Positions 273 through 21,719 of a DNA stretch of 21,795 bases are shown one piece after another (the first letter of the stretch is position 1; each line of letters opens with the position of its first letter). Under the pieces are notes generated by a model. It worked only from the letters and a program-made list of their open reading frames with translations, had not been told where the DNA came from and searched no databases. This stretch comes from a virus, in the IMG/VR virus record IMGVR_UViG_3300036668_000062, positions 1 through 21,795 of that record; one strand, written 5' to 3'. The position numbers were made by a program, and so were the translations under genes.

Positions 273-322
273 CCATTATTTTTTAGTGTTTTTAATTTGT
301 AAAGGGGTTAAATTTCATGTTG

Positions 323-436: not shown

Positions 437-549
437 GCTGTAAGCAGTAACCGAAATTTAACCCCTGCTCGAAAGGGCGAATACGTCTATCCAATACAGG
501 CTGGTAGCATGGTCAAAAGCCTATGCGAACGTCTGGGAGAGCATCAGCG

Positions 550-1892: not shown

Positions 1893-1894
1893 TC

Positions 1895-4576: not shown

Positions 4577-4578
4577 AT

Positions 4579-6311: not shown

Positions 6312-6318
6312 GAATATA

Positions 6319-9341: not shown

Positions 9342-9342
9342 A

Positions 9343-10113
9343 ATGGCAAAGATTAAAATCTCGCAGTTTGATACAGACCCAGCAAATAACACAGATATCG
9401 ATGGAATTAACTTAGCCGAGGGCATGGCTCCCGGTCTTGTCAACAATGCTATTCGCACGTTGATGGCACAGCTAAAAAATCAGTTGACTGGCACAGACGA
9501 TGATGACCGCACAATCGGTGGCAATCTTACAGTTGATGGTACGTCTACGTTCACTAATGCGGTCACTATTAGTGGCAGAATAGCTGATGCGTTCCCATCT
9601 GGCACAAAAATGCTGTTTAACCAAACTTCTGCACCTGTTGGCTGGGTTAAAGATACAACGCACGATAATAAGGCTTTGCGAGTTGTAAGTGGCACTGCTG
9701 GCACAGGTGGCTCAATAGCATTTACCACAGCGTTTGCAAGTCAAAACGTTGGTGATACTACATTAACAGCATCTCAAATACCAAGCCACACGCATACGTT
9801 TTCAGGTTCAGGTACGACTGGTAATGCTGGTAGTCATACTCATAGCGTTACTGACCCATCGCACAGCCATGGGAATGTGCCATTACAAATGACTGACCCA
9901 GATAGAGGTACAGGATCAAGTTTGTTTTCAATTGATAACATTGGTAATACTAATTCCGCAACCACTGGAATATCTATAAACGGTGTAGGCGACCACGCGC
10001 ACAGTGTTTCAATTTCGGGAACAACAGGTGCTCTAGGCGGTGGCACAGCACACAGCCATACTATAAACCTAGCCGTTCAATACGTTGACGTTATTATCTG
10101 CACAAAATCATAA
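9343..10113 (+). CDS. Tail fibre / collar-domain protein with HxH metal-binding repeats
   Basis: A 256-residue protein. The N-terminal ~80 residues match the start of many podoviral tail proteins (KISQFDTDPANNTDIDGINLAEG, then a TVDGTSTF beta-helix-like stretch). PSGTKMLFNQTSAPVGWVK at 86-104 is a tail-collar signature. The C-terminal half holds five HxH motifs (about residues 149, 165, 174, 218 and 238) in Gly/Ser/Thr spacers, the pattern that binds metal in T4 gp12-type fibre tips. It is likely a trimeric receptor-binding or fibre protein. It shows no similarity to the DGR variable repeat. Confidence 0.85.
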   Translation: MAKIKISQFDTDPANNTDIDGINLAEGMAPGLVNNAIRTLMAQLKNQLTGTDDDDRTIGGNLTVDGTSTFTNAVTISGRIADAFPSGTKMLFNQTSAPVGWVKDTTHDNKALRVVSGTAGTGGSIAFTTAFASQNVGDTTLTASQIPSHTHTFSGSGTTGNAGSHTHSVTDPSHSHGNVPLQMTDPDRGTGSSLFSIDNIGNTNSATTGISINGVGDHAHSVSISGTTGALGGGTAHSHTINLAVQYVDVIICTKS

Positions 10114-10394
10114 TGAAAATTGAATCTAAAGCCAATTGCCCGCTAGACAACTTTAACCCGTGTCGGCAGCTAGATTGCGCTTGGTTCACTCAATTGCGTG
10201 GCAATAACCCAAATACGGGTGAGCCGATAGACGAGTGGGGTTGCGCTATTGCATGGATACCAGTTTTACTTATTGAAAACTCTCAACAGCAAAGAAGCAC
10301 GGGCGCTGCGGTGGAGTCATTTAGAAACGAGATGACAAAAGCTAACACACAAACGGCTGATCTTATTAATGCTCAACAGAAACTTTTGGGGTAA
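10113..10394 (+). CDS. Cysteine-containing phage hypothetical protein
   Basis: A 93-residue protein starting in the previous stop (TAATG). The first half holds four Cys (residues 9, 17, 22 and 43) around NFNPCRQLDCAWFTQLRG and EWGCAIAWIPVLLIEN, then a Gln-rich polar helix. This compact Cys/Trp-rich architecture is, as I recall, conserved in phages directly upstream of lysis genes, but no function is known to me. The Cys could bind metal. Confidence 0.75.
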   Translation: MKIESKANCPLDNFNPCRQLDCAWFTQLRGNNPNTGEPIDEWGCAIAWIPVLLIENSQQQRSTGAAVESFRNEMTKANTQTADLINAQQKLLG

Positions 10395-10397
10395 TAA

Positions 10398-10649
10398 ATG
10401 AGTCAAGAAATATACAATATTGTTTTGGGTTTAGCAGGTACGCTTGGCGGGTGGTGGCTAAAAGTGATGTGGGATTCTTTGAAAGAATTGCAATCTGCTG
10501 ACAAAGATTTGACCGAAAAAGTTAGCCGTATTGAAGTTTTAGTTGCGGGCAACTATGTTAAGCGCGAAGAATTTGAACGCGCGTTAGAAAGAATATTTGT
10601 CAAACTCGATAATATCGAAATTAAGATTGACGCCAAGGCTGACAAATGA
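10398..10649 (+). CDS. Small membrane-anchored coiled-coil protein, lysis region
   Basis: An 83-residue protein with one N-terminal hydrophobic segment (residues ~5-25, IVLGLAGTLGGWWLKVMW) followed by a charged coiled coil (ELQSADKDLTEKVSRIEVL, then ERALERIFVKLDNIEIKID). It is translationally coupled to the holin by ATGA. Similar one-helix plus coiled-coil proteins sit in phage lysis cassettes and may assist or antagonise holin, but this is inferred from position. Confidence 0.75.
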   Translation: MSQEIYNIVLGLAGTLGGWWLKVMWDSLKELQSADKDLTEKVSRIEVLVAGNYVKREEFERALERIFVKLDNIEIKIDAKADK

Positions 10650-10915
10650 AACTGGTAGAAAATTCAAAAGACTGGTCGAAGTGGTGGTCGGTGCGGTTCT
10701 CAATTATTGGTGGCGCAATATTAACTTTACTGGAGGTATATCCAAATGTGGTCGCAACTGTTATCCAAACTCTTCCAGACGCAATCACCGACCAAATTGG
10801 AACAGATATCCTTAAAGTCATCGGAATCGTCTGCATCATTGCCTCACCAATCGCCCGTGTCATTAAGCAATCAAGACTGGATAAGCCAAGCGACAAAACA
10901 AATCACGAGGCATGA
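10646..10915 (+). CDS. Putative holin
   Basis: An 89-residue protein with two hydrophobic segments (about residues 18-40 and 55-74) joined by a short loop, a polar N-terminus with WSKWWSVRFS and a charged C-terminus (KQSRLDKPSDKTNHEA). This is typical of small two-helix phage holins that permeabilise the inner membrane for endolysin. It begins in an ATGA overlap with the upstream gene, and the endolysin start lies inside it. Confidence 0.75.
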   Translation: MKLVENSKDWSKWWSVRFSIIGGAILTLLEVYPNVVATVIQTLPDAITDQIGTDILKVIGIVCIIASPIARVIKQSRLDKPSDKTNHEA

Positions 10916-11309
10916 GGGCGAGGTACTTCACGCTTACGATGACCACTTAGGATTTGCCACTATTGGTGTGGGCAGGCTAATTGACAAGCGCAAAGGTGGT
11001 AATATCACGCATGATGAAGCCCAGTATTTGCTGAACAATGACATCACTACACGTGTAGAATCCTTACAAGCAAAGCTGCCTTGGTTTGATGGTCTCTCTG
11101 ACGTGCGTAAAGGCGTACTGTTGAACATGAGCTTCCAGTTGGGTATAACAGGACTACTTGGCTTTGGTCGCACCTTAGAGATGGTTAAAATGGGTGACTA
11201 TGATAACGCTGCTGACAATATGCTTAAAAGCAAATGGGCGCAACAAACGCCTGCTAGAGCGAACGAGTTGGCTAATCAAATGAGAACAAACACATGGCAA
11301 TCTGGCTAA
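10746..11309 (+). CDS. Endolysin, T4-type lysozyme (glycoside hydrolase family 24)
   Basis: A muramidase that cleaves peptidoglycan at lysis. RHEGEVLHAYDDHLGFATIGVG places E57, D66 and T72 at the same spacing as T4 lysozyme E11, D20 and T26. The domain continues to the TW motif near the C-terminus. The start at ATG 10746 has a good Shine-Dalgarno (TGGAGGT, nine bases before) and gives a 45-residue Ser-rich leader (MWSQLLSKLF...) before the domain, read from inside the holin gene. A later start at GTG 10857 lacks a ribosome site. No cleavable signal peptide is evident, consistent with holin-dependent release. Confidence 0.9.
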   Translation: MWSQLLSKLFQTQSPTKLEQISLKSSESSASLPHQSPVSLSNQDWISQATKQITRHEGEVLHAYDDHLGFATIGVGRLIDKRKGGNITHDEAQYLLNNDITTRVESLQAKLPWFDGLSDVRKGVLLNMSFQLGITGLLGFGRTLEMVKMGDYDNAADNMLKSKWAQQTPARANELANQMRTNTWQSG

Positions 11310-11530
11310 AGTTTAAGGTCTATATTATTGGACTAGTTGCCGTGTTTACCGCAGCACTCTCAATCTATTTTGTAGGGCGCAGTCATGGCGGACAAGCTGA
11401 AAGCGAGGCACGAGATGAATCAGACAGAAAACAAGCACGCAAGATTGAAGATAGTGCCGACAATGCTCGCACTATTACTGGCGACCCAGTTAAGCGGTTG
11501 TCAAAACACGGGCGGATACGTTCAGACTGA
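11294..11530 (+). CDS. Putative i-spanin (Rz-like)
   Basis: A 78-residue protein with an N-terminal membrane anchor (residues ~7-27, FKVYIIGLVAVFTAALSIYFVG) and a charged periplasmic tail (ESEARDESDRKQARKIED). It is the inner-membrane half of a spanin pair that fuses inner and outer membranes in Gram-negative lysis. It overlaps the lysozyme by 16 bases, and a lipoprotein frame is nested out of phase. The coiled coil is short compared with lambda Rz (153 residues), so it is an unusually small member. Confidence 0.7.
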   Translation: MAIWLKFKVYIIGLVAVFTAALSIYFVGRSHGGQAESEARDESDRKQARKIEDSADNARTITGDPVKRLSKHGRIRSD

Positions 11531-11651
11531 GCGTAGCATTTGCAGGGAGCTTGCGCGTGACTTGCCGACTTACAGCACAAAAGATACGCCCGCAACTCTC
11601 GAATCGGGCGCACGGTTTATAGACGTTTTTTATGCGGTTTGTCCTAATTGA
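11415..11651 (+). CDS. Putative o-spanin lipoprotein (Rz1-like)
   Basis: A 78-residue protein with a lipoprotein signal: basic start, hydrophobic IVPTMLALLLATQ and lipobox LSGC with Cys at about residue 29. The mature part would sit on the outer membrane and contact the i-spanin. ATG 11415 has a GAGG six bases upstream and is preferred over an in-frame ATG at 11385. It starts inside the i-spanin gene in another frame and runs 121 bases past it. It is not Pro-rich like lambda Rz1 and carries two more Cys near its middle and end, so its identity rests on the lipobox and position. Confidence 0.7.
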   Translation: MNQTENKHARLKIVPTMLALLLATQLSGCQNTGGYVQTERSICRELARDLPTYSTKDTPATLESGARFIDVFYAVCPN

Positions 11652-11653
11652 TA

Positions 11654-11761
11654 ATGGCGACAAGAGTAACAACCCACACGAGAACATTTATAAATATTAT
11701 TGTGGCTAGAAAGTGTAAGCGATTCAATGATTTTTTTCCTTTAGTTTTGCTTCTATCATAG
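11654..11761 (+). CDS. Possible 35-residue protein at the convergent junction
   Basis: An open frame of 35 codons, MATRVTTHTRTFINIIVARK and onward, begins three bases after the o-spanin stop. Its last third overlaps, antisense, the 3' end of the leftward gene ending at 11724. The first 25 residues are basic and coherent. The end (DFFPLVLLLS) is read from the antisense of that gene and may be fortuitous. No convincing terminator hairpin is seen in this junction on either strand. Confidence 0.3.
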   Translation: MATRVTTHTRTFINIIVARKCKRFNDFFPLVLLLS

Positions 11762-12344
11762 ACATTTGTTTAATAATTGTTGCGGATGAGTTGTATATCT
11801 TAAAAAATTCTTCTTTAGTTAGCCCGACCCATTCGCGCTTTGGTGGTGCTGTGTATAGATCAACGCCCCCTTTAGGGTAAGACCCTTTTGGGTAAACTAA
11901 AATGTGGCTGTAGTCATCTGAAATAAATCCCTGCAAATCATTGCTTTCAACAGGTTCTTGGCTTTCTGCATCTGACATTTCTTCTCCTTTAAGAACTTCT
12001 TGAATGCGTTGATACAACTGATGTCGCGTGAAGTTATCTTCTTGTCTGACATCCCACCCAGCGTATCTCATCTCCGTTTCTGCGTGTCTTAGTATTGCGT
12101 ACAGTAAATCATTGTCTGCTGAGAAGGCGTCCATCATGTCGCGGTAGGAATCGCACTCGTCTTTCATTTGTTCCAACTCAGAGTATTTAACCGCCCCAAC
12201 GGGTTCTTGGCTTTCTGATTGTTCAGGAAGCGGGTCAACAAGACCTATGATTTTACTCATGGCTTCTTTTCGGCTTATTCCATCCGGAGGCAAATAATCG
12301 CACACGACTTTTAAAATAGCCTCAAGTCTTTCTCTGTCGGTCAT
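11724..12344 (-). CDS. Phage early-region hypothetical protein
   Basis: A 206-residue acidic, helical protein, the last gene of the leftward operon. It contains a SQEPVGAVKYSELEQMKDE segment, a long helical middle and LYTAPPKREWVGLTKEEFFK near the end. LYTAPP followed by a helix is a segment I recall from several small phage proteins of unknown function. SESQEPVGAV at 50-60 and a second ESQEPVESND near residue 128 look like an internal duplication. It overlaps the preceding gene by four bases (ATGA). Confidence 0.75.
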   Translation of the reverse strand: MTDRERLEAILKVVCDYLPPDGISRKEAMSKIIGLVDPLPEQSESQEPVGAVKYSELEQMKDECDSYRDMMDAFSADNDLLYAILRHAETEMRYAGWDVRQEDNFTRHQLYQRIQEVLKGEEMSDAESQEPVESNDLQGFISDDYSHILVYPKGSYPKGGVDLYTAPPKREWVGLTKEEFFKIYNSSATIIKQMSMIEAKLKEKNH

Positions 12345-12514
12345 GTGTTTAGCTCCCTGAGTCGTTCAGATATTTCTTTTTGCTTGCGCTCCGATACTAA
12401 ATCGAAGTTGCTACCACATATACAAACATAACTCCCTGCGTTGTGACTCGCATATCGGTCAAAGCCGTGCAGAACTTTAGGGTTTGGGTCACAGGGTTCG
12501 CTTGGGTCGTTCAT
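12341..12514 (-). CDS. 57-residue hypothetical protein with a CxC motif
   Basis: Read leftward from ATG 12514: MNDPSEPCDPNPKVLHGFDR and onward, ending SERLRELNT. Both ends overlap neighbours by ATGA, which strongly supports a real coding gene despite its size. Cys at residue 8 and the pair CIC at about 32-34 could bind a metal. Function unknown. Confidence 0.75.
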   Translation of the reverse strand: MNDPSEPCDPNPKVLHGFDRYASHNAGSYVCICGSNFDLVSERKQKEISERLRELNT

Positions 12515-12729
12515 TCTTTTTCCCTATATTCAAAGTAATGTGTTGGGTCTAGCGTTGGGTCCATGGAGCTTCCTTTTTTAATGTTGTGCGCTACTTTGTA
12601 GGCTACGCACCTAGCGTATTTTTCGAGAGCATCTTCTGTCAAAATATATTCACCTGTTGAGTGATTAAATGGAAGGCCACTAGCGCTTTCTAGTGCCAGA
12701 GCATAACTGTATGCTGTATTTTTATTCAT
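12511..12729 (-). CDS. Small hypothetical phage protein
   Basis: A 72-residue protein, MNKNTAYSYALALESASGLP and onward, helical in the first two thirds and ending in acidic, aromatic FEYREKE. It overlaps the genes on both sides by four bases in the leftward ATGA chain. No recognised domain. Confidence 0.75.
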   Translation of the reverse strand: MNKNTAYSYALALESASGLPFNHSTGEYILTEDALEKYARCVAYKVAHNIKKGSSMDPTLDPTHYFEYREKE

Positions 12730-12992
12730 TCTTCTACTCCAAAATTTGATTTAATCTGCTGTTCTATTTCATTAAAAATAGCTAAGGCTAAATCTTTATC
12801 CATAATCTTGTGTGAGTTTTTTTCGTGGCACCAGCCTCGAGCAATAGCCCCCAACAATTCTTCCCGGCCTGTACACTCTTTAGCAACCATCTCTGCAAAC
12901 TGTTCCAATTCTTTGCCATCAGATACCACATACATTTCGTCAAATTTAGGAAATCCTGCCTCAAGAATTAACTCTTTTATTCGTTTGTTCAT
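12726..12992 (-). CDS. Hypothetical phage protein, helical
   Basis: An 88-residue protein: MNKRIKELILEAGFPKFDEM, then a segment with one Cys (ECTGREELLGAIARGWCHEKN) and DKDLALAIFNEIEQQI. The pattern REELxxAIARGWCxxKNxxKxMDxDLAxAI is one I recall among phage hypothetical proteins. Its start follows the frame-broken mini gene at 12989-13064, and its end overlaps the next gene by ATGA. Confidence 0.75.
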   Translation of the reverse strand: MNKRIKELILEAGFPKFDEMYVVSDGKELEQFAEMVAKECTGREELLGAIARGWCHEKNSHKIMDKDLALAIFNEIEQQIKSNFGVEE

Positions 12993-13064
12993 TTCGCCTC
13001 CTGTTTTATTGGGCTGCCCTGCTCATCTAGCCAAAAAGGCCAAGGTGCGACAGGTTGCGTTCAT
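12989..13064 (-). pseudogene. Frame-broken mini gene (about 24 codons)
   Basis: Directly after the stop of the upstream gene, in the same frame, 23 codons stay open: TQPVAPWPFWLDEQGSPIKQ followed by EAK and a stop that overlaps the next ATG as ATGA. The Trp/Pro-rich text looks like real protein, but no start codon exists in this frame. An ATG at 13064 starts in the wrong frame and hits a stop after 13 codons. The sequence GCGAAATGAAC (leftward strand) occurs at both ends, 72 bases apart. I infer either a small gene broken by a 1-2 base indel near its start, or a readthrough tail of the upstream gene. Confidence 0.45.
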
Positions 13065-13462
13065 TTCGCTTCCATTATTGCTTGTTTGTTGGCTTCCATC
13101 AACGCTCTGCTGTGTTGCTCTGCGGATTCTTTTGTTAAATGCGTCAATCCAAAATCGCACACTCTACAATCATACGCATCGTTGCGCCACAGTAATGAAT
13201 CCACAAAATGTGCCGAAGCTATCCAATATTTTTGACCTGACTTCATTAAAGATGAATCGCTTACAGGGGCGGGAAATTTAACCCCTGCTAACTCGCACAT
13301 CTTGGTTGGTGGGCTAGTAGGCTTGTCACCAACTGCGTAAATGTTGTCTTGGTTGATGACGAGCGTTTCTTCCCAAACGTGGCAGTAACGACTCCAATAC
13401 CATAACTGTTGACTTGTGTCGTCAAGCCATTGCTTAATAACTTCTGCTTGTGGGTGTTTCAT
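13061..13462 (-). CDS. IKQW-domain phage protein, tandem paralogue 1
   Basis: A 133-residue protein with the N-terminal motif KHPQAEVIKQWLDDT and a C-terminal part carrying MCELAGVKFPAP, then QKYWIAS and FGLTHLTKESAEQHSRAL. The gene immediately upstream shares the same architecture, so the two are tandem duplicates. The N-terminal block alone also opens the third gene of the series. Proteins of this type occur in phage early regions without known function. Start overlaps the neighbour by ATGA, and the stop is followed by an in-frame open tail. Confidence 0.8.
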   Translation of the reverse strand: MKHPQAEVIKQWLDDTSQQLWYWSRYCHVWEETLVINQDNIYAVGDKPTSPPTKMCELAGVKFPAPVSDSSLMKSGQKYWIASAHFVDSLLWRNDAYDCRVCDFGLTHLTKESAEQHSRALMEANKQAIMEAK

Positions 13463-13869
13463 TTTGATTCCTTTATCGTGAGTAGGTTAACTGCCATCAA
13501 CGCTTGGCTGTGTTGGTCTGCGGCTTTTCTTGTTAGGTGAATTAAGCCTGCATCAAGAATTTTACAATCGATAGATTCATCATACCAAGACACAGAATAA
13601 GAATGTCCAGATGCGTCAGCTATAAAGTATAGGGCGTGTTTAGTTAATGCTTTATTGTTTGGCGCAGGAAACTTTACCCCTGCTAACTCGCACATCGTGA
13701 CTGGTGGTGCGGTTGGCTTTATGCCTATTGCGTAACTTAAATTAGGGCAAACAAGCACCTCTTCTAAGTAAGATGCTGACCAAGTTTTTGAATCTGCTAA
13801 CAAAACCCATATGCACTGATCGGTATCCTCAAGCCATTGCTTAATTAGTTCTGCTTGTGGGTGCTTCAT
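13459..13869 (-). CDS. IKQW-domain phage protein, tandem paralogue 2
   Basis: A 136-residue paralogue of the downstream gene. Shared blocks are KHPQAE(L/V)IKQWL, MCELAGVKFPAP, an aromatic middle and GLIHLTRKAADQHSQAL. The central regions have diverged (ASYLEEVLVCPNLSYAIGIK against ETLVINQDNIYAVGDK), so the duplication is not recent. ATGA overlaps on both sides keep the three genes in one translational unit. Function unknown. Confidence 0.8.
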   Translation of the reverse strand: MKHPQAELIKQWLEDTDQCIWVLLADSKTWSASYLEEVLVCPNLSYAIGIKPTAPPVTMCELAGVKFPAPNNKALTKHALYFIADASGHSYSVSWYDESIDCKILDAGLIHLTRKAADQHSQALMAVNLLTIKESK

Positions 13870-14156
13870 AGCTCAAACTCCTTGGCTGACAATGCAATTG
13901 CTTCGATTTTGAAAAACTTAAATTTATCCATCGCTTCTTCGTATGTGTAGTGGTCGATAGTCATGTCAACGTAATCCCCTTGCACGAGTGCGTACCTGTG
14001 CTTAGTAACGATCTTAGGTTTGACTCGATACTTTGTGCCTTTGTGCCATTGGGGGGACTCAACGTAACGCCAATCTTCTTCGTTTTCAAAATAAAACTGA
14101 ATTTCAGCACCGTCAGCCCATTGCTTAATCACATCTGCGTGTTTATGTGGTTTCAT
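13866..14156 (-). CDS. IKQW-domain phage protein, shorter relative
   Basis: A 96-residue protein starting MKPHKHADVIKQWADGAEIQ, the same N-terminal block as the next two genes, but followed by EDWRYVESPQWHKGTKYRVK. This KHADxIKxWADGAEIQ...W....YR form is common among phage hypothetical proteins. It lacks the FPAP...GLxHLT C-terminal part of its neighbours, so it may represent the simpler form of the family. Confidence 0.8.
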   Translation of the reverse strand: MKPHKHADVIKQWADGAEIQFYFENEEDWRYVESPQWHKGTKYRVKPKIVTKHRYALVQGDYVDMTIDHYTYEEAMDKFKFFKIEAIALSAKEFEL

Positions 14157-14581
14157 TATCTTATCCCCTGTATATGTTCCAAATACATTAAATTAACGAC
14201 ACGTTGTTGCTTCATGTTTCTGACAGGTACAAGTGCACGATTAATTGCATCGTAACGCGCACCGATTCCCCTACTCACAATTTCTGCATCGCTTAACTTT
14301 TGAGCTTCAAGTCTGCAAGAAATGGGAAATTCTGCGTCAATTTCGTCTCCGATACTAAACGCAGCAAGTGGTCTAGTACATTTTAATTTCTGCCAACTTG
14401 AAACGTAAATTATTTTATGTTTGCGTAACGTTGCAACTGCTACGTTAATTGCTCGAGCAAGTAAATCGGGCAAATGCTCGCCTATAGATTCTCGAGTTAA
14501 GTTTTTATTTTTCTTCAACAATATTAAAATCTGTGATGCAGCAGAATCCTTTTTTTCAAGGTAATACTCAATATCTCTCAT
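14156..14581 (-). CDS. Putative winged-helix DNA-binding protein
   Basis: A 141-residue protein. Residues ~10-65 (AASQILILLKKNKNLTRESI, then a second helix and VATLRKHKIIYVSSWQK) read as a winged helix-turn-helix. The rest is less conserved and ends with RALVPVRNMKQQ-type basic sequence. ATG 14581 is chosen because it overlaps the stop of the upstream gene (ATGA) and has GGGGG just upstream; an ATG ten codons earlier lies inside that gene. Possibly a regulator of the phage early region. Confidence 0.7.
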   Translation of the reverse strand: MRDIEYYLEKKDSAASQILILLKKNKNLTRESIGEHLPDLLARAINVAVATLRKHKIIYVSSWQKLKCTRPLAAFSIGDEIDAEFPISCRLEAQKLSDAEIVSRGIGARYDAINRALVPVRNMKQQRVVNLMYLEHIQGIR

Positions 14582-14730
14582 AATGCCCCCAAAGATTTGT
14601 AATAAGCCCATTTTTCTTGGTACTCAGGCAACTCACTCGGTGGCACAAAGCCAAGGCGTTTAAACGTTGCTAGCACGTCGGTTGCTGATGCTGGCACGTA
14701 TGCTTTATGATCTTGCGGGTAGTTCAACAT
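14578..14730 (-). CDS. 50-residue phage hypothetical protein
   Basis: Read leftward from ATG 14730: MLNYPQDHKAYVPASATDVL and onward, ending KWAYYKSLGAL. YVPASATDV...RLGFVPPSE..EYQEKWAYY is a pattern I recall from small phage proteins. It is preceded by the strong ribosome element TGGAGAAACCAAATG and followed by an ATGA overlap, so it is almost certainly translated. Confidence 0.8.
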   Translation of the reverse strand: MLNYPQDHKAYVPASATDVLATFKRLGFVPPSELPEYQEKWAYYKSLGAL

Positions 14731-14743
14731 TTGGTTTCTCCAG

Positions 14744-14932
14744 TTATTTCAATTTATATCTATCACGGCATGGCGCACAAGCACCATCTATTAGTCTACC
14801 TGTCCACTCTCCACACAAGTCGCAGTCACCCTCAGTGCCTGGGTCAAGTTTTGCGGCATTGCTGATTTCCTGCAACTTTGCGTCAATGGCAAGTTGAGTG
14901 CGGTCATTGGTTATGTCAACGTCATCGCTCAT
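14744..14932 (-). CDS. TraR/DksA-like zinc-finger protein
   Basis: A 62-residue protein with an acidic helical N-terminus (MSDDVDITNDRTQLAIDAKL) and a C-terminal four-Cys zinc ribbon, CDLCGEWTGRLIDGACAPC. This resembles the small phage and plasmid TraR/DksA proteins that enter the RNA polymerase secondary channel and alter promoter choice. Start 14932 is set by a one-base overlap with the upstream stop (TGATG). An alternative upstream start at 14983 lies inside the neighbouring gene. Family assignment is by pattern only. Confidence 0.65.
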   Translation of the reverse strand: MSDDVDITNDRTQLAIDAKLQEISNAAKLDPGTEGDCDLCGEWTGRLIDGACAPCRDRYKLK

Positions 14933-15045
14933 CAGACAAAACACGCTAGGATAAGCGTCAGGAACGCCATAGAAGCCACGCAATAGCCTAGCCTTGGTGT
15001 AATGTTATCTTCGTCTTTTAAACGCTTGTATTCGCCTGTAATCAT
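14932..15045 (-). CDS. 37-residue single-pass membrane protein
   Basis: Read leftward from ATG 15045: MITGEYKRLKDEDNITPRLG then YCVASMAFLTLILACFV. A basic/acidic N-terminal half is followed by a 17-residue hydrophobic helix reaching the C-terminus. It overlaps both neighbours (ATGA upstream, TGATG downstream), which supports expression. It could be a small inner-membrane effector or superinfection factor, but no function is known. Confidence 0.7.
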   Translation of the reverse strand: MITGEYKRLKDEDNITPRLGYCVASMAFLTLILACFV

Positions 15046-15443
15046 AATTGCACCTGATAATTTGTACGAACCACTTTATATACGATAGCGTCTTGAGCAG
15101 CTGTCAAACTAAGTATTTTTTTGCCGCCGTCTTTATAGACAAGGGTCGAAAATACATCGGTTAAAAACCAGCCATTTGATTTGCGAGTCAAAGTGACAGA
15201 AGTCGCATCACGAGAATATTTGTAAGAATTCGGCACTGATGCGCCACTAGTCGCATTAAATATCGCGCCAGGAAAATGCTTTTTTGCGCTGAGTAGTTTG
15301 ATCAATAGGCTTTCAGCGTCAGCAACGAGCGCCTCGATTTGATCAAAGCGCGCATAAGTATGCGCGGTCGATTTGTGGTTGACTTCGCGCAAAACTGCTT
15401 CTATTTTTTGTGCGTTTGCTTGTGTGATTTTAATTTCTTTCAT
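15042..15443 (-). CDS. Conserved phage early hypothetical protein
   Basis: A 133-residue protein: ITQANAQKIEAVLREVNHKS, a helical middle, then SGASVPNSYKYSRDATSVTL and GWFLTDV. This layout (ITxxNAxxIEAxL...VPNxYKYSR.AT) is one I recall as a phage hypothetical family. It is the first gene behind the 15462-15522 operator-like block and has the repeated ribosome element CGGAGAAACAAAATG. Confidence 0.8.
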   Translation of the reverse strand: MKEIKITQANAQKIEAVLREVNHKSTAHTYARFDQIEALVADAESLLIKLLSAKKHFPGAIFNATSGASVPNSYKYSRDATSVTLTRKSNGWFLTDVFSTLVYKDGGKKILSLTAAQDAIVYKVVRTNYQVQL

Positions 15444-15461
15444 TTTGTTTCTCCGTTAATG

Positions 15462-15522
15462 TGTAAACAATATTAACACACTATTTACACCTTTATATTA
15501 TTATTTACATTATTTTATAGGT
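15462..15522 (-). promoter_or_regulatory. Operator/promoter block, copy 2 (TGTAAA/TTTACA repeats)
   Basis: AT-rich block with TGTAAACA at 15462-15469, TTTACA at 15484-15489 and TTTACA at 15504-15509, ending TTATTTTATAGG. It matches 18790-18851 almost base for base in the shared parts, including ACACTATTTACAC and TATTATTTACAT. It lies directly before the leftward gene starting at 15443 and overlaps the end of the gene at 15510. On the leftward strand TTAATA/TAATAT near 15470-15476 could be a -10. It probably gives the second half of the leftward operon its own regulated promoter. Confidence 0.6.
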
Positions 15523-15734
15523 ACTTTCCCTAGTATTCTGTAAACATAAATTTGTCGTGGCCCGGCTTTGTACTCGGCTGGTGCTGTTTTTAAACGCAAA
15601 AGTTTGCCACTCTTAATCATGCGTAGCAGTGTAATTTTTACAGTCTCTTCTTTTAGATGTAATGCTGATGCAATTTCATTCGTATTTTTGTCTGCGTTTT
15701 CTGTTAAATAAGTAATAATATCTTTTGAAATCAT
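15510..15734 (-). CDS. Small winged-helix DNA-binding protein
   Basis: A 74-residue protein: ISKDIITYLTENADKNTNEI, then ASALHLKEETVKITLLRMIK and a wing-like RQIYVYRI end. This is a classical winged helix-turn-helix (recognition helix around residues 29-41). Being next to one of the duplicated operator blocks, it is a candidate for binding them, though that link is inference. Confidence 0.75.
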   Translation of the reverse strand: MISKDIITYLTENADKNTNEIASALHLKEETVKITLLRMIKSGKLLRLKTAPAEYKAGPRQIYVYRILGKVPIK

Positions 15735-15743
15735 AATATTTCC

Positions 15744-16052
15744 CTAAAATTCAAATTGTTTTAATTCATAGCGGTTGCTAGAATTTTTCCACCATCCGTG
15801 AACAATTACCCGCCAGTTGCTTCGTATCATCTCAGGCAATGCGGGTGCGTTCTCAATTTTTTTAATGCGTGCTGACATATTACTTTTGCTTGTTACCTGT
15901 ACCGCAAGCGTTTCACCGTTGCCAACAGCTAGTAAATCTATGCAACCGTACAGGTCGTGTTTGCGTTTAGTGAAAGCGTTGTAATACTCTACTGTCGCAA
16001 CGGTGTAGCCATCTTTCTCTAGCATTTTTTTTGAGCGCAACGATAAACTCAT
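15744..16052 (-). CDS. PD-(D/E)xK-like (resolvase/VRR-type) nuclease fold protein
   Basis: A 102-residue protein: an N-terminal helix, then YGCIDLLAVGNGETLAVQVTSKSN, the alpha-beta core seen in Holliday-junction-resolvase-like and VRR-type nucleases, and a C-terminal WRVIVHGWW strand. The first Asp (CIDLLA) is present, but the usual ExK is read as QVTS, so catalytic activity may be altered or lost. It sits among recombination genes. ATGA overlap with the upstream gene. Confidence 0.65.
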   Translation of the reverse strand: MSLSLRSKKMLEKDGYTVATVEYYNAFTKRKHDLYGCIDLLAVGNGETLAVQVTSKSNMSARIKKIENAPALPEMIRSNWRVIVHGWWKNSSNRYELKQFEF

Positions 16053-16309
16053 AGTATTTGACCTAAAACTTTGTTGAGCGCATCAAGCTCGGTCATTTTC
16101 ATTACCCGCCACATATTTTTCTGCCCATGAATGCCATTTAAAGACCCTTGGTGGCAATCTTTACACAGAGGTAAGCATAAGTACTGCTTGTGTTGCTCGA
16201 TGTGGTGTGCATCGCTTGGCGGGGGCGCATCGCACACAGCACACGGTAGTGACTTAATCATGCCAAGGTGTTTGCGTTCACGAGCTGTCAATTTATTGTT
16301 CATCGTCAT
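16049..16309 (-). CDS. Ref-like HNH zinc nuclease
   Basis: An 86-residue protein with LPCAVCDAPPPSDAHHIEQ, then LPLCKDCHQGSLNGIHGQKN and a helical end. The two CxxC pairs and the HH...H set match the HNH core of the phage Ref (RecA-dependent nuclease) and related small nucleases. It is much shorter than P1 Ref (186 residues), as it lacks an N-terminal DNA-binding part. Start choice among ATGs at 16330, 16309 and 16303 is uncertain; 16309 avoids most of the overlap with the upstream gene. Confidence 0.75.
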   Translation of the reverse strand: MTMNNKLTARERKHLGMIKSLPCAVCDAPPPSDAHHIEQHKQYLCLPLCKDCHQGSLNGIHGQKNMWRVMKMTELDALNKVLGQIL

Positions 16310-16445
16310 ACATTTTTTGTAGTAGCACAATTGCGTCTTTCAATATGTCTAACCGTGTAATCGTGTCCGTCTTACTAAAATACTCACTACTTTTTAACGT
16401 TACTTCGTCTTTGTTTTCATCAAAGAATATTGCAATCGCTCTCAT
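16293..16445 (-). CDS. 50-residue hypothetical protein
   Basis: Read leftward from ATG 16445: MRAIAIFFDENKDEVTLKSS and onward, ending LQKMYDDEQ. A GGAG sits about seven bases before the ATG. The frame is open further upstream, but that part overlaps the zinc-finger gene at 16420-16629 and is unlikely to be coding. It looks like a small alpha-beta protein; function unknown. Confidence 0.65.
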   Translation of the reverse strand: MRAIAIFFDENKDEVTLKSSEYFSKTDTITRLDILKDAIVLLQKMYDDEQ

Positions 16446-16629
16446 TTTTCTGCTCCGTGTATTCTTTATAAAGTGTTGCTCGGTCAATGCGTGTAGCGTG
16501 CTCCAAAAAATCAAACATTCTTTCGCCTTGAGTTTTGTCTGGGTACGCAGATTTAACAAGTCGGTAGCGGCAACCCACACACTTATTGTCGTAAGTTGAA
16601 CCGCTAAGTTCACATTTGTTGCATTCCAT
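16420..16629 (-). CDS. Four-Cys zinc-finger phage protein
   Basis: A 69-residue protein starting MECNKCELSGSTYDNKCVGC, a CxxC...CxxC zinc knuckle, followed by RYRLVKSAYPDKTQGERMFD and a helix. CxxC...CxxCxxRL(V/L)xSA-type proteins recur, as I recall, in phage early regions. ATG 16629 overlaps the SSB stop. It overlaps the next gene by 26 bases. Confidence 0.75.
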   Translation of the reverse strand: MECNKCELSGSTYDNKCVGCRYRLVKSAYPDKTQGERMFDFLEHATRIDRATLYKEYTEQKNESDCNIL

Positions 16630-17009
16630 CAGAACGGTAAGTCAGAATCTATATCAGCTAATTCTTGACGAGCTGGCTTTGCTTGCTGAGCTGGCTTTTC
16701 TTGCGTATCACTTTTACCCGTTAGCCCGACTTCCTGAACGATACCCTCAAGCGCAACACCCTGTTTACCGTCTTTGCTAGTAAATTCATTTAAATGTACA
16801 TCTGATATCTCAGCGTAGATCAACTGACCCTTTGCAAGATATGGAGCAAGAGATTCGGCACGTTTACCAAAAAGTGATGCGCGTACCCATTGTGATTTCT
16901 TTTCTTTGCCGAATTTGTACGCAAGACTTATCTGCAGTACAGCCATGCCACCAGATGAATAACGTAATTCAGGTTCGTTCCCGATTCTTGCTAATCCTAA
17001 TAATTTCAT
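16629..17009 (-). CDS. ssb: Single-stranded DNA-binding protein
   Basis: A 126-residue OB-fold protein: LARIGNEPELRYSSGGMAVL, ISLAYKFGKEKKSQWVRASL and KGQLIYAEI follow the SSB strand order. The Gln/Lys/Pro-rich linker and acidic C-terminal tip DIDSDLPF match the partner-binding tail of bacterial and phage SSBs. It is coupled to the YqaJ exonuclease and annealing genes and would coat the ssDNA they produce. Confidence 0.9.
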   Translation of the reverse strand: MKLLGLARIGNEPELRYSSGGMAVLQISLAYKFGKEKKSQWVRASLFGKRAESLAPYLAKGQLIYAEISDVHLNEFTSKDGKQGVALEGIVQEVGLTGKSDTQEKPAQQAKPARQELADIDSDLPF

Positions 17010-17632
17010 ACTTCCTCCGTTGTTAACTGCTCAAACATCTGTTCGACTTCTTCTAAAAACTTAACCGCTTCAGCCTCGACGTTTTTTATCTCGTCTGCGG
17101 TTGGCTCGTACAACCTGATAAACAATTGTTTGCCTTTTGGCATTCTTGGGTCAAATGATGCGAACCATACTGCTTTTCCTGTACAAGCTGATTGCACAGA
17201 CATTTGCGGTTTGTATTCATCTGGAATTACACCGCCAAGCAAATACTTAAGATGTGTTGAGGTAGTCGGGCATTTAATCTCAATCGCACGACCATCTGAC
17301 ACAAAACCATCGGGGCTTGCACCAAAGTACTGAATCATCGGGTGATCAATAAAGCCTACGTCTGTAACCTTTAACCCAGTTTTTGACTCAAATGCTTCTT
17401 TAGCCATCGATTCGTGGTCGATGCCCCACTGCATTGCACCGTTTACAAACTTGGGCACAATGTTATCAGTTAACCGTTCCGCAAGTATTTCAATCTTAAG
17501 GTCTTTTCGTGCAGCAGAATCGCCTCCGCCTTTTAGATACGACATTGCCGAGGCCATGCGTGAAGCTGTCAACTTGCCTATTCTTGCGTTAAACCAAGCA
17601 CCAGTTCCCTGTTGTGCGTTTTCTTCTCTCAT
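17006..17632 (-). CDS. YqaJ-family (lambda-exonuclease-like) recombination exonuclease
   Basis: A 208-residue exonuclease that resects dsDNA ends to make 3' tails for annealing. Motifs: GIGKLTASRM-like start (RIGKLTASRMASAM, residues 18-30), GIDHESMAKEAFE (residues 70-82), GASPDGFV with D108 and EIKCP with E118 and K120, the PD-(D/E)xK core. A YKPQMSVQ helix follows. Length and motif order match phage YqaJ/lambda-exo proteins. The genes for annealing protein, exonuclease and SSB are chained by ATGA overlaps, indicating one recombination module. Confidence 0.9.
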   Translation of the reverse strand: MREENAQQGTGAWFNARIGKLTASRMASAMSYLKGGGDSAARKDLKIEILAERLTDNIVPKFVNGAMQWGIDHESMAKEAFESKTGLKVTDVGFIDHPMIQYFGASPDGFVSDGRAIEIKCPTTSTHLKYLLGGVIPDEYKPQMSVQSACTGKAVWFASFDPRMPKGKQLFIRLYEPTADEIKNVEAEAVKFLEEVEQMFEQLTTEEV

Positions 17633-18177
17633 TCTTTATTCTCAATTTGATTTATTCTAAAATCTTTAATCATAGCAACAGCTTCAGCCCGAATTAAATT
17701 GCGTTCTGTTTCTGTCAATGTCGTTCTAAATTCTTTAACTTTGTTTTCAGTATCCATGCCTGATAACAGCGCTAACAGTTCAGGCTTGCCACGTGGCTCA
17801 GGTTCTTGCTCAGGCTCTGTGTGTGGCAAATCCTCACCCGCATAAATATACAAACCGAGACCGTGACACGCGATAGCTTTGACCAGACATCTCATCATGT
17901 TTTTGTTGACCTGAAACGAATCTGGGTTTTTGATTGCCTGGTTGCGATGATCCATGACTGGTAGGTGCATGGTTAGAGGCTTTTCAAATGCAGTAACAGT
18001 ACAAGACACCATCATAGATTCACCAAAAATTTGCGGTTCGTGGAATGTCCAGTTAGCAGTTGGGTCTTGGCGCATGAGTTGGTCTACTGCCCACGCCCAC
18101 GACAGGTAAGACAATTTGTTTTTTTGTTCTATGTGCTTAGATACGTCAATCTTTGCTAGTTGTTCAAAATGGTTCAT
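17629..18177 (-). CDS. Sak/DUF1071-type single-strand annealing protein
   Basis: A 182-residue recombinase. LSYLSWAWAVDQLMRQDP (residues 22-39), FEKPLTMHLPVMDHRNQAI and NKNMMRCLVKAIACHGLGLY followed by IYAGEDLP are hallmarks of the DUF1071 (Sak-type) annealing proteins that pair ssDNA produced by the partner exonuclease. The C-terminal third is acidic and variable (HTEPEQEPEPRG), probably a partner-binding tail. It is preceded by the ribosome element TGGAGAAACAAAAATG and coupled to the exonuclease gene. Confidence 0.88.
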   Translation of the reverse strand: MNHFEQLAKIDVSKHIEQKNKLSYLSWAWAVDQLMRQDPTANWTFHEPQIFGESMMVSCTVTAFEKPLTMHLPVMDHRNQAIKNPDSFQVNKNMMRCLVKAIACHGLGLYIYAGEDLPHTEPEQEPEPRGKPELLALLSGMDTENKVKEFRTTLTETERNLIRAEAVAMIKDFRINQIENKE

Positions 18178-18374
18178 TTTTGTTTCTCCAATTTATACTT
18201 TGCGTAACGCGTGCCGTTAGACTCTATTAAAAATGTTGTTATATCAAAGCCTTTGCCCCGCAGTTTAAATACAATGTCAGCAAGCCGTGTTGCTTTAAAC
18301 AGCTCAAACGCTTGCCAACTGGTTATAGTCTTGCCTTTTTTAAGGTGGGCAAACACCGAATCAATCTTAGTCAT
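18174..18374 (-). CDS. Small helix-turn-helix protein
   Basis: A 66-residue protein, VFAHLKKGKTITSWQAFELF then TRLADIVFKLRGKGFDITTF and a basic end. It reads as the compact winged-helix type (ITSWQAFELFKATRLADIVF as the HTH) used by phage helix-turn-helix proteins. Overlaps the annealing gene and the upstream gene by four bases each. Confidence 0.75.
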   Translation of the reverse strand: MTKIDSVFAHLKKGKTITSWQAFELFKATRLADIVFKLRGKGFDITTFLIESNGTRYAKYKLEKQK

Positions 18375-18559
18375 AGCGCCTCCACGGTTATGCGGTACAC
18401 AGTACCGTTCTTGTCGACAACCTCTAGCATGCGCTTACCCACTTGCGAATAAACGTCATACGCATGTTCTACGTGCTCTACACGATCAGAGTCACGCAAT
18501 GCGTTTAGGCATACATCGGCAAGTTGGTCAGCGTAAACAAACATAGATTTAGTTTTCAT
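18371..18559 (-). CDS. 62-residue hypothetical protein
   Basis: Starts MKTKSMFVYADQLADVCLNA and ends TVYRITVEAL; it is an alpha-beta protein with no recognised motif. ATG 18559 is favoured because TTTGGAGGATATCA lies just before it, inside the end of the upstream gene; an ATG at 18580 has no clear ribosome site. Function unknown. Confidence 0.7.
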   Translation of the reverse strand: MKTKSMFVYADQLADVCLNALRDSDRVEHVEHAYDVYSQVGKRMLEVVDKNGTVYRITVEAL

Positions 18560-18752
18560 TGATATCCTCCAAATATTCATTACGATTTACACCGAAGTAT
18601 TGCTCAACTTCTTCGGGTTCAATAGTCCCGATAACTTCCCATTCATCGGGAGTTACGCACAGCAAAGAATCATCAATATGGTCATCGTCTTTTGCGTACA
18701 CGACAGCGCACACTTTTTGCACGCGGGTAGAATAAATTTTATACATTGGCAT
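18549..18752 (-). CDS. 67-residue hypothetical protein, first gene of the leftward operon
   Basis: MPMYKIYSTRVQKVCAVVYA, then very acidic (DDDHIDD, EPEEVEQYF) to the end LEDINEN. This acidic composition is seen in some phage DNA-mimic or inhibitor proteins, but also in many unrelated ones, so I assign no function. It is preceded by CGGAGAAACCAAATG, the exact repeated ribosome element, and by the operator block at 18790-18851. Confidence 0.75.
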   Translation of the reverse strand: MPMYKIYSTRVQKVCAVVYAKDDDHIDDSLLCVTPDEWEVIGTIEPEEVEQYFGVNRNEYLEDINEN

Positions 18753-18789
18753 TTGGTTTCTCCGTTTATGTCAGCTAATTTGCTAACCA

Positions 18790-18851
18790 TGTAAACATTG
18801 TAATACACTATTTACACATTATGTATTTATTATTTACATTTATTTTTATAG
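18790..18851 (-). promoter_or_regulatory. Operator/promoter block, copy 1
   Basis: Contains TGTAAACA (18790-18797), the imperfect palindrome TGTAATACACTATTTACA (18799-18816) and a second palindrome TGTATTTATTATTTACA (18822-18838), ending TTATTTTTATAGG. Most of it is repeated at 15462-15522. It lies directly before the first leftward gene (18752) and abuts a rightward promoter at 18855, so a repressor bound here could control both directions. On the leftward strand TACAAT (TATTACAATG context) is a candidate -10. Confidence 0.65.
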
Positions 18852-18854
18852 GTT

Positions 18855-18883
18855 TTGCACAAGCTATAAATTTTAGCTATAAT
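18855..18883 (+). promoter_or_regulatory. Sigma-70-type promoter, rightward
   Basis: TTGCAC (18855-18860) and consensus TATAAT (18878-18883) are separated by exactly 17 bases. The spacer itself holds the interrupted palindrome AGCTA-7-TAGCT (18862-18878), an operator candidate. Transcription would begin near 18889-18891 and meet the terminator at 18907-18943. Confidence 0.8.
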
Positions 18884-18888
18884 TGGGT

Positions 18889-18943
18889 TGGGTTTCTCCG
18901 ACCTGTGGCTCGCAAGTGAATATTCCTTGCGAGTCTTTTTTTT
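18889..18943 (+). ncRNA. Predicted ~55-nt small RNA with an anti-ribosome-site 5' seed
   Basis: Bounded by the promoter at 18855-18883 and an intrinsic terminator. Its unpaired 5' end would contain GGUUUCUCCG (18891-18900), the exact complement of CGGAGAAACC, the ribosome element before the genes starting at 18752 and 21716 and, with one or two changes, at 14730, 15443 and 18177. A 5' seed followed by a terminator stem is the usual shape of a trans-acting bacterial sRNA. The same ten bases could instead be a relic ribosome site of a lost leftward gene, or the RNA may be a simple leader. Confidence 0.45.
18907..18943 (+). terminator. Intrinsic terminator
   Basis: CTCGCAAG (18909-18916) pairs perfectly with CTTGCGAG (18926-18933). 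The stem extends by a G-U and a G-C pair (18908/18934, 18907/18935) around a 9-nt loop and is followed by eight T residues (18936-18943). It lies only about 24 bases after the -10 of the rightward promoter. Confidence 0.85.
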
Positions 18944-18953
18944 AGTGTATAAT
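18927..18953 (+). promoter_or_regulatory. Possible second rightward promoter
   Basis: TATAAT at 18948-18953 is a consensus -10; TTGCGA at 18927-18932 is a usable -35 but at only 15 bases spacing, and it overlaps the terminator stem. It would start transcription near 18960, just before the attenuator-like leader. Without it, rightward replication genes would depend on readthrough of the terminator. Confidence 0.45.
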
Positions 18954-18965
18954 TAAGTTGTTGCT

Positions 18966-19049
18966 GTGGAAGGCGATGATACCGTTTTAATCTGTGTCTT
19001 TCTCCGTAAGGAGGCCTTCCACAAGGACGCAGATTAAAGCGGTTTTTTT
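18966..19049 (+). terminator. Attenuator-like leader: conditional terminator with interleaved stems
   Basis: Two stems overlap in ABA'B' order. A is GTGGAAGGC (18966-18974) with GCCTTCCAC (19014-19022), 9 bp. B is ACCGTTTTAATCTG (18981-18994) with CAGATTAAAGCGGT (19030-19043), 14 bp with one G-U, followed by seven T (19043-19049). B is a strong intrinsic terminator; A can only coexist with it as a pseudoknot, so the pair could switch. Inside lies CTCC-GTAA-GGAG (19002-19013), which hides the AAGGAGG at 19008-19014. An ATG follows directly at 19050. Confidence 0.65.
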
Positions 19050-19073: not shown

Positions 19074-19800
19074 GTCGGTTAAAAACGGCAGGGGTCTAGG
19101 GATAGCATCTACTGTGGGATAGGTTTGAGAGAGATGCAAGGGTGGCGAAGCTAGTGCCCTTAACCAAACGACTGGCGGGTTCTGTTCATACGGCAATGGC
19201 TCCGAAAAGCAGATTAAGGAACTTAGTTTATCTCTAGGATAGGCTAGGTTCGTACACCGACAATTCACCAAAAAGCAAATGTTTAAACACTTAGTTAAAC
19301 AATATAAGTTAAAGAGTAAAAAACAATCTTTATTATTAAAAATGTCAACTTTAACTTCTAACGAAATTGGTAACTTAATCAAAAAGTCTTCAGACGGTTT
19401 TTTACATACTAAAGAATGGAAAAACTTAAGACAACAAGCTATTGAAATTTATGGCAAGCAATGCGCTATATGTAAAGTTGTTCCAAATAAAAAAAACCCT
19501 TGCAACATTGACCACATAAAACCGCGTAAATTTTTTCCAGAATTAGCTTTAGACATTTTAAATTTGCAACCATTGTGCGCTAAATGTAATAAACGCAAAG
19601 GAAACAAATATTGACTATCACCCTTGGGGACTTTATTGCCAAACAAAAAACAATAAAAAATAAATAATTAAATTACAAAATTATTGCAACACAGATTGGA
19701 TTAATTTGTATATAGTTAACATTGGCGGATAGGCTTGCAAACCGAAAATTGAGCATCTCACTCAACTTCCGTCACCCTAAATTGAGATGCAACTAGAGAG
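19074..19800 (+). ncRNA. Probable group I intron (subgroup IA-like), boundaries approximate
   Basis: P7 candidate: TTGACTAT (19611-19618) with ATAGTTAA (19712-19719), 8 bp with one G-U. The 5' strand runs into CACCCTTGGGG, like the P7.1 hairpin of T4 td-type introns (recalled). P1 candidate: CTAGATTT (19066-19073) with GGGTCTAG (19092-19099), extended by GTCG/CGGC (19074-19077, 19086-19089), giving U-G at the 5' splice site after 19073. Further stems: GCATCT/AGATGC (19105-19137), AAGGG/CCCTT (19138-19161) and GCATCTCA/TGAGATGC (19753-19790). The HNH gene sits before P7 and its stop codon lies within it. 19050-19278 and 19615-19800 hold no convincing gene. P3-P6 and the 3' splice site (perhaps after G19800) are not proven. 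Confidence 0.55.
19279..19614 (+). CDS. Intron-borne HNH homing endonuclease
   Basis: A 111-residue protein with an N-terminal basic region (KQYKLKSKKQ) and an HNH core: CAIC, NIDHIKPRKFF, DILNLQPLCAKCNKRKGNK. The His, Asn and His/Asn of the motif and both zinc CxxC pairs are visible. Such small HNH enzymes nick or cut intronless alleles and spread group I introns. It is more AT- and Lys-rich than nearby genes. The start could be ATG 19342 instead (89 residues); neither has a clear ribosome site. The TGA stop lies in the predicted P7 strand, a compact arrangement typical of intron ORFs. Confidence 0.85.
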   Translation: MFKHLVKQYKLKSKKQSLLLKMSTLTSNEIGNLIKKSSDGFLHTKEWKNLRQQAIEIYGKQCAICKVVPNKKNPCNIDHIKPRKFFPELALDILNLQPLCAKCNKRKGNKY

Positions 19801-20412: not shown

Positions 20413-20873
20413 GCTTGCCAATGAAAGCACTTGAAAGATTGTTTCAACGGTTAAGCGCAACGTATGGTTCAGAATTTATAAACAAATGGGATAAGTTACC
20501 TATTAGTGACGTTAAAACAGCATGGGCGCACGAGCTTTCATCATTTGCGGACAATTTAACGGCTATCGGCTGGGCATTGGAAAACTTACCAGAACGCTGT
20601 CCTAACGCAATAGAATTCAAGAAGCTATGTAGGCAAGCACCAAAACCTTTAATCGCACTAGAGGACTATTCAAAGGCTTCTGCGGACATCGTAGACGCTG
20701 AGATTGCTGAAATGGTTAAAGCTGTGGTTCAGCAAACGGATACAAATGACAGCAAGCGTGATTACAAAGCGTGGGCTAAAAATCTAAAGGCTCGGCACGA
20801 TGCGGGCGAGAAACTGGAAATATTTCAAATAAGGTCGTACAAAGTTGCCTTGGGCATAACGGAGAAATACTAA
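20409..20873 (+). CDS. Replication-associated protein downstream of the DUF1376 gene
   Basis: A 154-residue helical protein: LERLFQRLSATYGSEFINKW, VKTAWAHELSSFADNLTAIG, WALENLPERCPNAIEFKKLC. This resembles proteins that follow DUF1376 genes in phages and parts of lambda-P-type helicase loaders (ERCPNAIEFKxLCR). No Walker motifs are present, so it is not an ATPase. ATGA overlap with the upstream gene suggests coupled production and a partnership. Confidence 0.75.
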   Translation: MSLPMKALERLFQRLSATYGSEFINKWDKLPISDVKTAWAHELSSFADNLTAIGWALENLPERCPNAIEFKKLCRQAPKPLIALEDYSKASADIVDAEIAEMVKAVVQQTDTNDSKRDYKAWAKNLKARHDAGEKLEIFQIRSYKVALGITEKY

Positions 20874-21373
20874 TGGAAAAAAGCAAAATTTACAAATTGT
20901 TAGATGAGCGTTTAGAAACATCACATGAGGCAATAAATGTCAAAATTGCTTATTTAGATATACATAAAGAATGGCAAATAGACATTGTTGGTAAGGGATA
21001 TTTATTTTTTGTTGGCATTTATAAAACCCGTGATGAAGCAAAAAAAATTGCAAACATTGTAAATGAATATTTAATAAGCAAACATCGAATTTGTGTTGAT
21101 CAAAGCGTTATAAAAACAGTAATTGAACAGAAAGATCATATTCGTGACGCCACGAAAATGATAAAACCAGAAAATAAACAAGTAGGTGGCACTCATTACA
21201 AATCAGATATTGAATGTTGGGATTACATTATCGCAAACCAGCTTGGTTACCTTGAAGGTTGTGCAATTAAGTACGTTACACGCCACAAAAGCAAGGGCGG
21301 GCGTGCGGACATACTTAAGGCGATTCATTATCTTGAGAAAATACTTGAGGTTGAGTATAAGGGTGAATCATGA
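20873..21373 (+). CDS. DUF3310-domain protein with N-terminal extension
   Basis: A 166-residue protein. Residues ~104-160, KQVGGTHYKSDIECWDYIIA then CAIKYVTRHKSKGGRADILK and an IHYLEKIL helix, are a full DUF3310 domain (also found in phage nucleotide-kinase-like proteins). The ~100 N-terminal residues are a separate alpha-beta region that I do not recognise. The gene starts on the last base of the previous stop (TAATG) and overlaps the next by four bases. Confidence 0.85.
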   Translation: MEKSKIYKLLDERLETSHEAINVKIAYLDIHKEWQIDIVGKGYLFFVGIYKTRDEAKKIANIVNEYLISKHRICVDQSVIKTVIEQKDHIRDATKMIKPENKQVGGTHYKSDIECWDYIIANQLGYLEGCAIKYVTRHKSKGGRADILKAIHYLEKILEVEYKGES

Positions 21374-21551: not shown

Positions 21552-21719
21552 ATGATATTTCAGATAACTAAAGAGCATATTAAGGATAACAATCTTTTGT
21601 TTACAAAAGTGGGTTGGTGGTGCTATAAATCAAATGAATCACAAATTTTACATGTAAGAGAAACAAGAGATGAAGTACAACAAATAGTATTTTATTTACA
21701 AACGGAGAAACCAAAATGA
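21552..21719 (+). CDS. 55-residue hypothetical protein
   Basis: From ATG 21552: MIFQITKEHIKDNNLLFTKV and onward, ending FYLQTEKPK. It begins five bases after the previous stop and overlaps the next start by ATGA, so it is likely translated. The last codons (ACG GAG AAA CCA AAA) double as the ribosome element CGGAGAAACC of the next gene. Confidence 0.65.
   Translation: MIFQITKEHIKDNNLLFTKVGWWCYKSNESQILHVRETRDEVQQIVFYLQTEKPK

Follow-up and report, generated by a model that had tools for sequence, protein, structure and literature searches.

Does the short stretch between the divergent early operons of this phage contig encode a small RNA (sRNA) acting on the phage's own messengers? The contig, a virus record of 21.8 kb, was analysed over its whole length of 21,795 nt, here called the window. 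Rightward late genes occupy approximately positions 1–11,650, a leftward early block (11,724–18,752) carries genes for SSB, a YqaJ exonuclease and a Sak annealing protein, and a rightward early block encodes an HNH protein, an O-like/DUF1376 replication protein and a DUF3310 protein. The Sak gene (17629–18177, minus strand; Pfam SSAP_Sak, 4.5e-44) has a protein of a Methylophilales phage as its top-ranked record match (46% identity), for which reason a betaproteobacterial host is plausible. In the control region flanked by the two early blocks, an earlier note had pointed to a promoter closely followed by a terminator, with the 5' end of the resulting RNA complementary to the ribosome-binding element of several phage genes. 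We judge it probable, with some reserve, that this locus is a genuine trans-acting sRNA gene whose product prevents a group of phage early genes from being translated.

The putative sRNA cassette

The features of the cassette and its putative target sites are collected in Table 1. The −10 box (18878–18883) is an exact consensus match, while the −35 hexamer TTTGCA (18854–18859), at 18-nt spacing, agrees with the consensus at four of six positions and is poor to fair; the earlier description of the promoter as near-ideal is thus overstated. Promoter-like matches in the cassette region show no excess over shuffled sequences (18 versus 23), so the weight of this promoter lies in its conservation and not in its consensus score. 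The predicted RNA folds with −20.9 kcal/mol (z = −5.2). Its strong terminator, a stem of 10 bp plus two inner pairs (12 in total), was missed by a consensus scan because of its 9 nt loop, and for the proposed terminated transcript of about 55 nt a length of about 54 nt is predicted. In the predicted clade-1 fold, the GGUUU of the seed region is paired and UCUCC is left in a 5-nt loop; a conserved 5' hairpin was considered and dropped, its pairs being broken in clade 2. The Rfam scan of the window gave no family match at 18855–18943, C4 included. Judged by its sequence features, the locus is an intergenic unit with its own conserved −10 box and a fully paired terminator helix, as expected of a trans-acting sRNA.

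Table 1. Features of the putative sRNA cassette and candidate target sites in the window
Feature	Position	Strand	Description
sRNA promoter	18854–18883	+	−35-like TTTGCA/TTGCAC, −10 TATAAT; from scan and conservation
Predicted sRNA	18890–18943	+	About 54 nt; start 6–7 nt past −10 box; 3' end in T8
Seed GGTTTCTCCG	18891–18900	+	Exact complement of ribosome-site 10-mer CGGAGAAACC
Intrinsic terminator	18907–18943	+	Stem 18907–18916/18926–18935, then T8 (18936–18943)
−10 box of second tandem rightward promoter	18948–18953	+	TATAATTA, invariant in 8 aligned contigs
Target 1, CGGAGAAACC	18755–18764	−	Ribosome site of first leftward gene (18549–18752, 67 aa); 10 bp with sRNA
Target 2, GGAGAAAC	18182–18189	−	Ribosome site of Sak (17629–18177); 8 bp
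Target 3, CGGAGAAAC	15447–15455	−	Ribosome site of 133-aa gene (15042–15443); 9 bp
Target 4, GGAGAAACC	14733–14741	−	Ribosome site of 50-aa gene (14578–14730); 9 bp
Target 5, CGGAGAAA	20860–20867	+	Ribosome site of DUF3310 gene (20873–21373); 8 bp; near-form CGGAGAAATACTAATG
Target 6, CGGAGAAACC	21703–21712	+	Ribosome site of rightward gene from 21716 (cut by window end); 10 bp

Conservation among related contigs

Eleven copies of the cassette were compared, seven in clade 1 (the window and contigs G001–G006) and four in clade 2 (G007, L176, L178 and L179). A pattern combining TATAAT with the seed matched 63 stretches, six of which contain the whole cassette; the other 57 lack the promoter-plus-terminator context and were rejected. 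Leaving the seed free in a promoter-to-terminator pattern added G007; L176, L178 and L179 were recovered with a pattern of seed plus terminator, which also hit L177, discarded as a chance match. Searches with the promoter only and with the terminator only each returned exactly the same ten IMG/VR phage contigs, in two clades.

Nine bases of the seed, GGTTTCTCC, are unchanged in all 11 contigs, and two of the searches did not require the seed. The four to six bases directly behind them vary among the copies, and the tenth seed base is G in clade 1 and T or A in clade 2. The promoter does not differ among the seven clade-1 contigs and differs little in clade 2, where the −10 box reads TATAAT, TATGAT (two contigs) or TATAAG, and every cell of the terminator helix is paired (100% among 10 distinct sequences), including one double change from C-G to U-A in L179. 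Because the seed is no more invariant than the terminator and the promoter, its invariance does not by itself prove pairing. Between the window and G007 the cassette (18838–18956) is 87% identical, against 67–80%, mostly about 70%, for the other aligned segments; recombination could have moved it between the clades.

A covariance model built from the 11 copies found no other convincing copy in the sequences searched. It gave zero matches in 81 Sak-phage loci and, in 274 bacterial genomes, a sole weak match (L180) between glutamate-dehydrogenase and RiPP-modification genes, judged to be due to chance. Nine matches from a pattern scan of a genome collection, spread over varied bacterial phyla, were likewise taken as chance, collectively and not case by case. 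In the phage records no DNA similar to the window was found, and none similar to the cassette except one weak chance match.

A family of extended ribosome sites

Of the 39 occurrences of GGAGAAAC counted over the seven clade-1 contigs, 32 are ribosome sites (three of them before 37-aa frames and one before a frame truncated by the end of the window) and seven are the antisense copies in the sRNA, with none elsewhere, which confirms an enrichment before start codons. The genes concerned are the first leftward gene, 67-aa, 133-aa and 50-aa genes, Sak in some contigs, and rightward genes including one of 48 aa. The invariant seed of all 11 copies is hence complementary to mRNAs encoded elsewhere, in clade 1 at 32 distinct ribosome sites.

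In the window, the perfect complement reported before the genes starting at 18752 and 21716 was found as exact copies of CGGAGAAACC at Targets 1 and 6, and the 8–9 matched bases claimed for three further leftward genes are also present (nine at Targets 3 and 4, eight at Target 2). A sixth site, before the DUF3310 gene (Target 5), was absent from that first list. The designation of the leftward targets as recombination genes holds for Sak, which has the motif, but not for the YqaJ and SSB genes, which are without it. The Target 1 site is kept throughout clade 1, with the gene behind the shared leader varying by contig; the leftward promoter region recurs in front of Target 3 (repeats D13 and D15).

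The density of GGAGAAACN{2,4}ATG is 229 per Mb in the window, 203 per Mb in clade 1 and 86 per Mb in clade 2, compared with 3.7 per Mb in distant Sak-encoding phages (538 kb), 12 per Mb in unrelated viral contigs and mostly 1–4 per Mb in 274 bacterial genomes. Given this contrast between about 200 per Mb in clade 1 and 4–12 per Mb in other phages or mostly 1–4 per Mb in bacteria, the extended ribosome element characterizes this phage group and not bacterial ribosome sites in general. An IMG/VR search with the full ribosome module matched at least 120 stretches; almost every one had one or two copies, a chance-level number, and no other phage group with several copies was present among the matches listed.

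Predicted pairing in the two clades

Binding energies were computed with both RNAs folded, since simple duplex energies without folding were too noisy. In three clade-1 contigs the mean net binding is −10.5 to −11.6 kcal/mol for genes with the motif versus −3.3 to −3.8 kcal/mol for the others, and shuffling of the seed weakens the computed binding of nearly all motif genes, with losses of 4 to 9 kcal/mol in most. For Target 1 the computed value is −13.3 kcal/mol, compared with −4.8 kcal/mol with a shuffled seed, and for Target 4 it is −10.6 kcal/mol.

The sRNA model is weaker in clade 2 than in clade 1. There the seed is kept, yet each contig has only one or two perfect targets; the first-gene sites of L178 and L179 have one mismatch to the sRNA, and G007, with an A after the seed, pairs weakly. 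Good targets are left in two places: before the first leftward gene of L176 and before a frame for a 28-aa membrane peptide in G007, L176 and L179. Upstream of the first leftward gene the base before GGAG is C in clade 1, facing a G of the sRNA, and A in clade 2, facing a U in L176, L178 and L179 and an A in G007. The resulting change from C:G to A:U affects one position in three contigs, with about one event on each side; it runs in the direction expected of pairing, and G007 does not fit. The 28-aa frame itself, MYDHTIYAIGAAVTVAIVTFVAMGWIVL, is conserved, encodes a single membrane span and has a AGGAGAAAC-type ribosome site (L173 5617–5629 in contig G007; also L176 and L179).

A possible translational switch and its alternatives

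From the conservation of the cassette, the invariance of the seed and the enrichment and placement of the target sites we infer transcription, pairing, repression and timing as follows. A phage RNA of about 54 nt would be transcribed rightward from its own σ70-type promoter in the divergent control region and would end at the intrinsic terminator. Its 5' end, GGUUUCUCCG, would pair over 8–10 bases with the extended Shine–Dalgarno element CGGAGAAACC, which is repeated before three to six early genes in these phages, and thereby bar 30S subunits. Because its first ten letters are complementary to a site repeated before these genes, one RNA may lower the translation of the whole scattered set. 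The promoter looks host-type and the sRNA dose would follow the number of phage DNA copies, so that the early genes may be shut off as replication advances. More tentatively, and with somewhat less confidence than doubt, the 10-mer may be regarded as a private ribosome-site code that marks early genes across several transcription units, with a copy-number-linked sRNA turning off the whole set at once; the genes would then form a translational regulon that has no repressor protein.

What speaks for an sRNA acting on phage mRNAs is a conserved, self-contained gene with a 5' end complementary to phage-specific ribosome sites; what speaks against it is clade 2, which keeps the seed with few perfect sites and is the main reason why two other roles stay under consideration. 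A real phage sRNA might mainly address host mRNAs, UUUCUCC(G/U) serving as a broad anti-Shine–Dalgarno seed that damps host translation or particular host genes, with the phage matches secondary. The core CUCC complements any GGAG ribosome site, the behaviour of clade 2 would be accounted for, and host mRNAs are targets of PreS and VpdS, two described phage sRNAs (PMC12197685). We nevertheless consider this unlikely, the match extending beyond the Shine–Dalgarno core to a 10-mer that is rare in bacteria and repeated in these phages. Equally unlikely is a role in transcription control: the short terminated transcript would serve to shield the leftward control region from the second rightward promoter, or to provide a replication primer in the vicinity of the O-like gene, with the antisense match arising incidentally. 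The sRNA terminator does directly precede the second conserved promoter, replication proteins are encoded in the rightward operon, and promoter and terminator letters are conserved as much as the seed; left unexplained are the exact complementarity of the 5' end to the phage's own ribosome-site family and the nine invariant bases beside variable ones.

It had also been suggested that the sequence might be the relic of a ribosome site on the opposite strand. A second form of this idea is that the ribosome-site module was recently copied here in inverted orientation; neither form implies an RNA function. The decamer does correspond, in inverted orientation, to the core of a 16-nt repeat, AAACGGAGAAACCAAA (I7), but the copy is limited to this core and its AAA flanks are missing. 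On the minus strand none of the 11 contigs has a start codon at ribosome-site distance, and a leftward gene using the antisense copy was found in none of them. With no start codon behind it, and with promoter, seed and terminator conserved together in all 11, a relic is very improbable.

Comparison with known systems

Most described phage sRNAs target one phage gene or the host. The C4 RNA is part of the same transcript as its target, and the P4 CI RNA is a small phage RNA acting on phage leaders. The statement in the earlier note that no system of this form had been described was too strong, given the similarity of P1/P7 C4 and of host anti-Shine–Dalgarno sRNAs. C4 is a short phage RNA that pairs around the ribosome site of a phage mRNA and blocks its translation, its complementary stretches being thought to sit in loops (PMC12197685). 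Both C4 and the window sRNA are thus phage-encoded antisense RNAs directed at a phage ribosome site. They differ in that C4, cut from the leader of its target operon, controls ant (antirepressor control) in lysogenic immunity, whereas the window sRNA has its own promoter and terminator in a separate divergent unit, a first target on the opposite strand and several scattered targets; moreover, neither a tyrosine integrase nor an HTH_3 repressor was found in the window and in nine related contigs, several being fragments. The sar RNA of P22 blocks translation initiation of ant (PMC12197685). Unlike the window sRNA, P4 CI and sar involve a single target or transcription termination and no shared ribosome-site family.

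Among bacterial sRNAs, NfeR1/αr14 (PMC10746234) and NmsR of Neisseria (PMC5362039) use C/U-rich anti-Shine–Dalgarno motifs to silence many mRNAs at the ribosome site. These are chromosomal and recognize generic Shine–Dalgarno sequences of host metabolic targets, in contrast to the 10-nt match of the window sRNA to a phage-private extended site; in αr14/NfeR1 CCUCCUCCC motifs lie in several hairpin loops, whereas here a single 5' UUUCUCC(G/U) motif is present. Trans-acting sRNAs encoded by phages, as is that of the window, include PreS of λ, which acts on host dnaN, and VpdS of VP882, whose targets are RNAs of host and phage, and both of them use Hfq (PMC12197685); VpdS, at about 50 nt, is close in length to the window sRNA. 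A literature search (open-access text, few terms) found nothing on a multi-target phage form, a weak sign of novelty. The general kind is already known from P1 C4 and the host anti-Shine–Dalgarno sRNAs; within it, an sRNA with which a phage reads its own private family of ribosome sites would seem to be an undescribed variant. If the model is correct, a phage without a recognised repressor could time a set of early genes at the level of translation through one RNA, and such systems could be sought in other phages by a simple sequence rule, a short terminated transcript that contains the antisense of the extended ribosome-site consensus of the phage itself.

Neighbouring elements

Directly behind the sRNA terminator lies a second tandem rightward RNA (window 18960–19047; L105 243–382; L114 6119–6220), with its own TATAATTA, a terminator formed from a long outer stem and a sequence that is completely different between phages. 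In two types of this RNA a 5' segment complements the loop of the stem, and the crossing pairs (e.g. GTGGAAGGC/GCCTTCCAC) suggest alternative folds or a pseudoknot. The type shared by the window and L116 contains TTTCTCCGT (window 18999–19007), which is antisense to three ribosome sites and mostly paired in the predicted fold. Further downstream, 19064–19180 matches the Rfam Betaproteobacteria-1 RNA (RF02932, 101 bits), the sole family reaching its gathering threshold in the window. This stretch is followed by the HNH gene (19279–19614), looks like an insert that L121 lacks, and resembles DNA located behind the primase gene of Acidovorax phage AP1.

Two copies of the leftward promoter region occur (window 15446–15520 and 18755–18848), and the TGTAAA/TTTACA-like blocks common to both are a candidate phage operator. 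At the far end of the window, 145–1566 holds a diversity-generating retroelement with a variable repeat (145–260) in the ORF 46–267, a template repeat (323–438) and a reverse transcriptase (523–1566; PHROG reverse transcriptase, 4e-90); 19 of the 20 differences between the repeats fall at template adenines.
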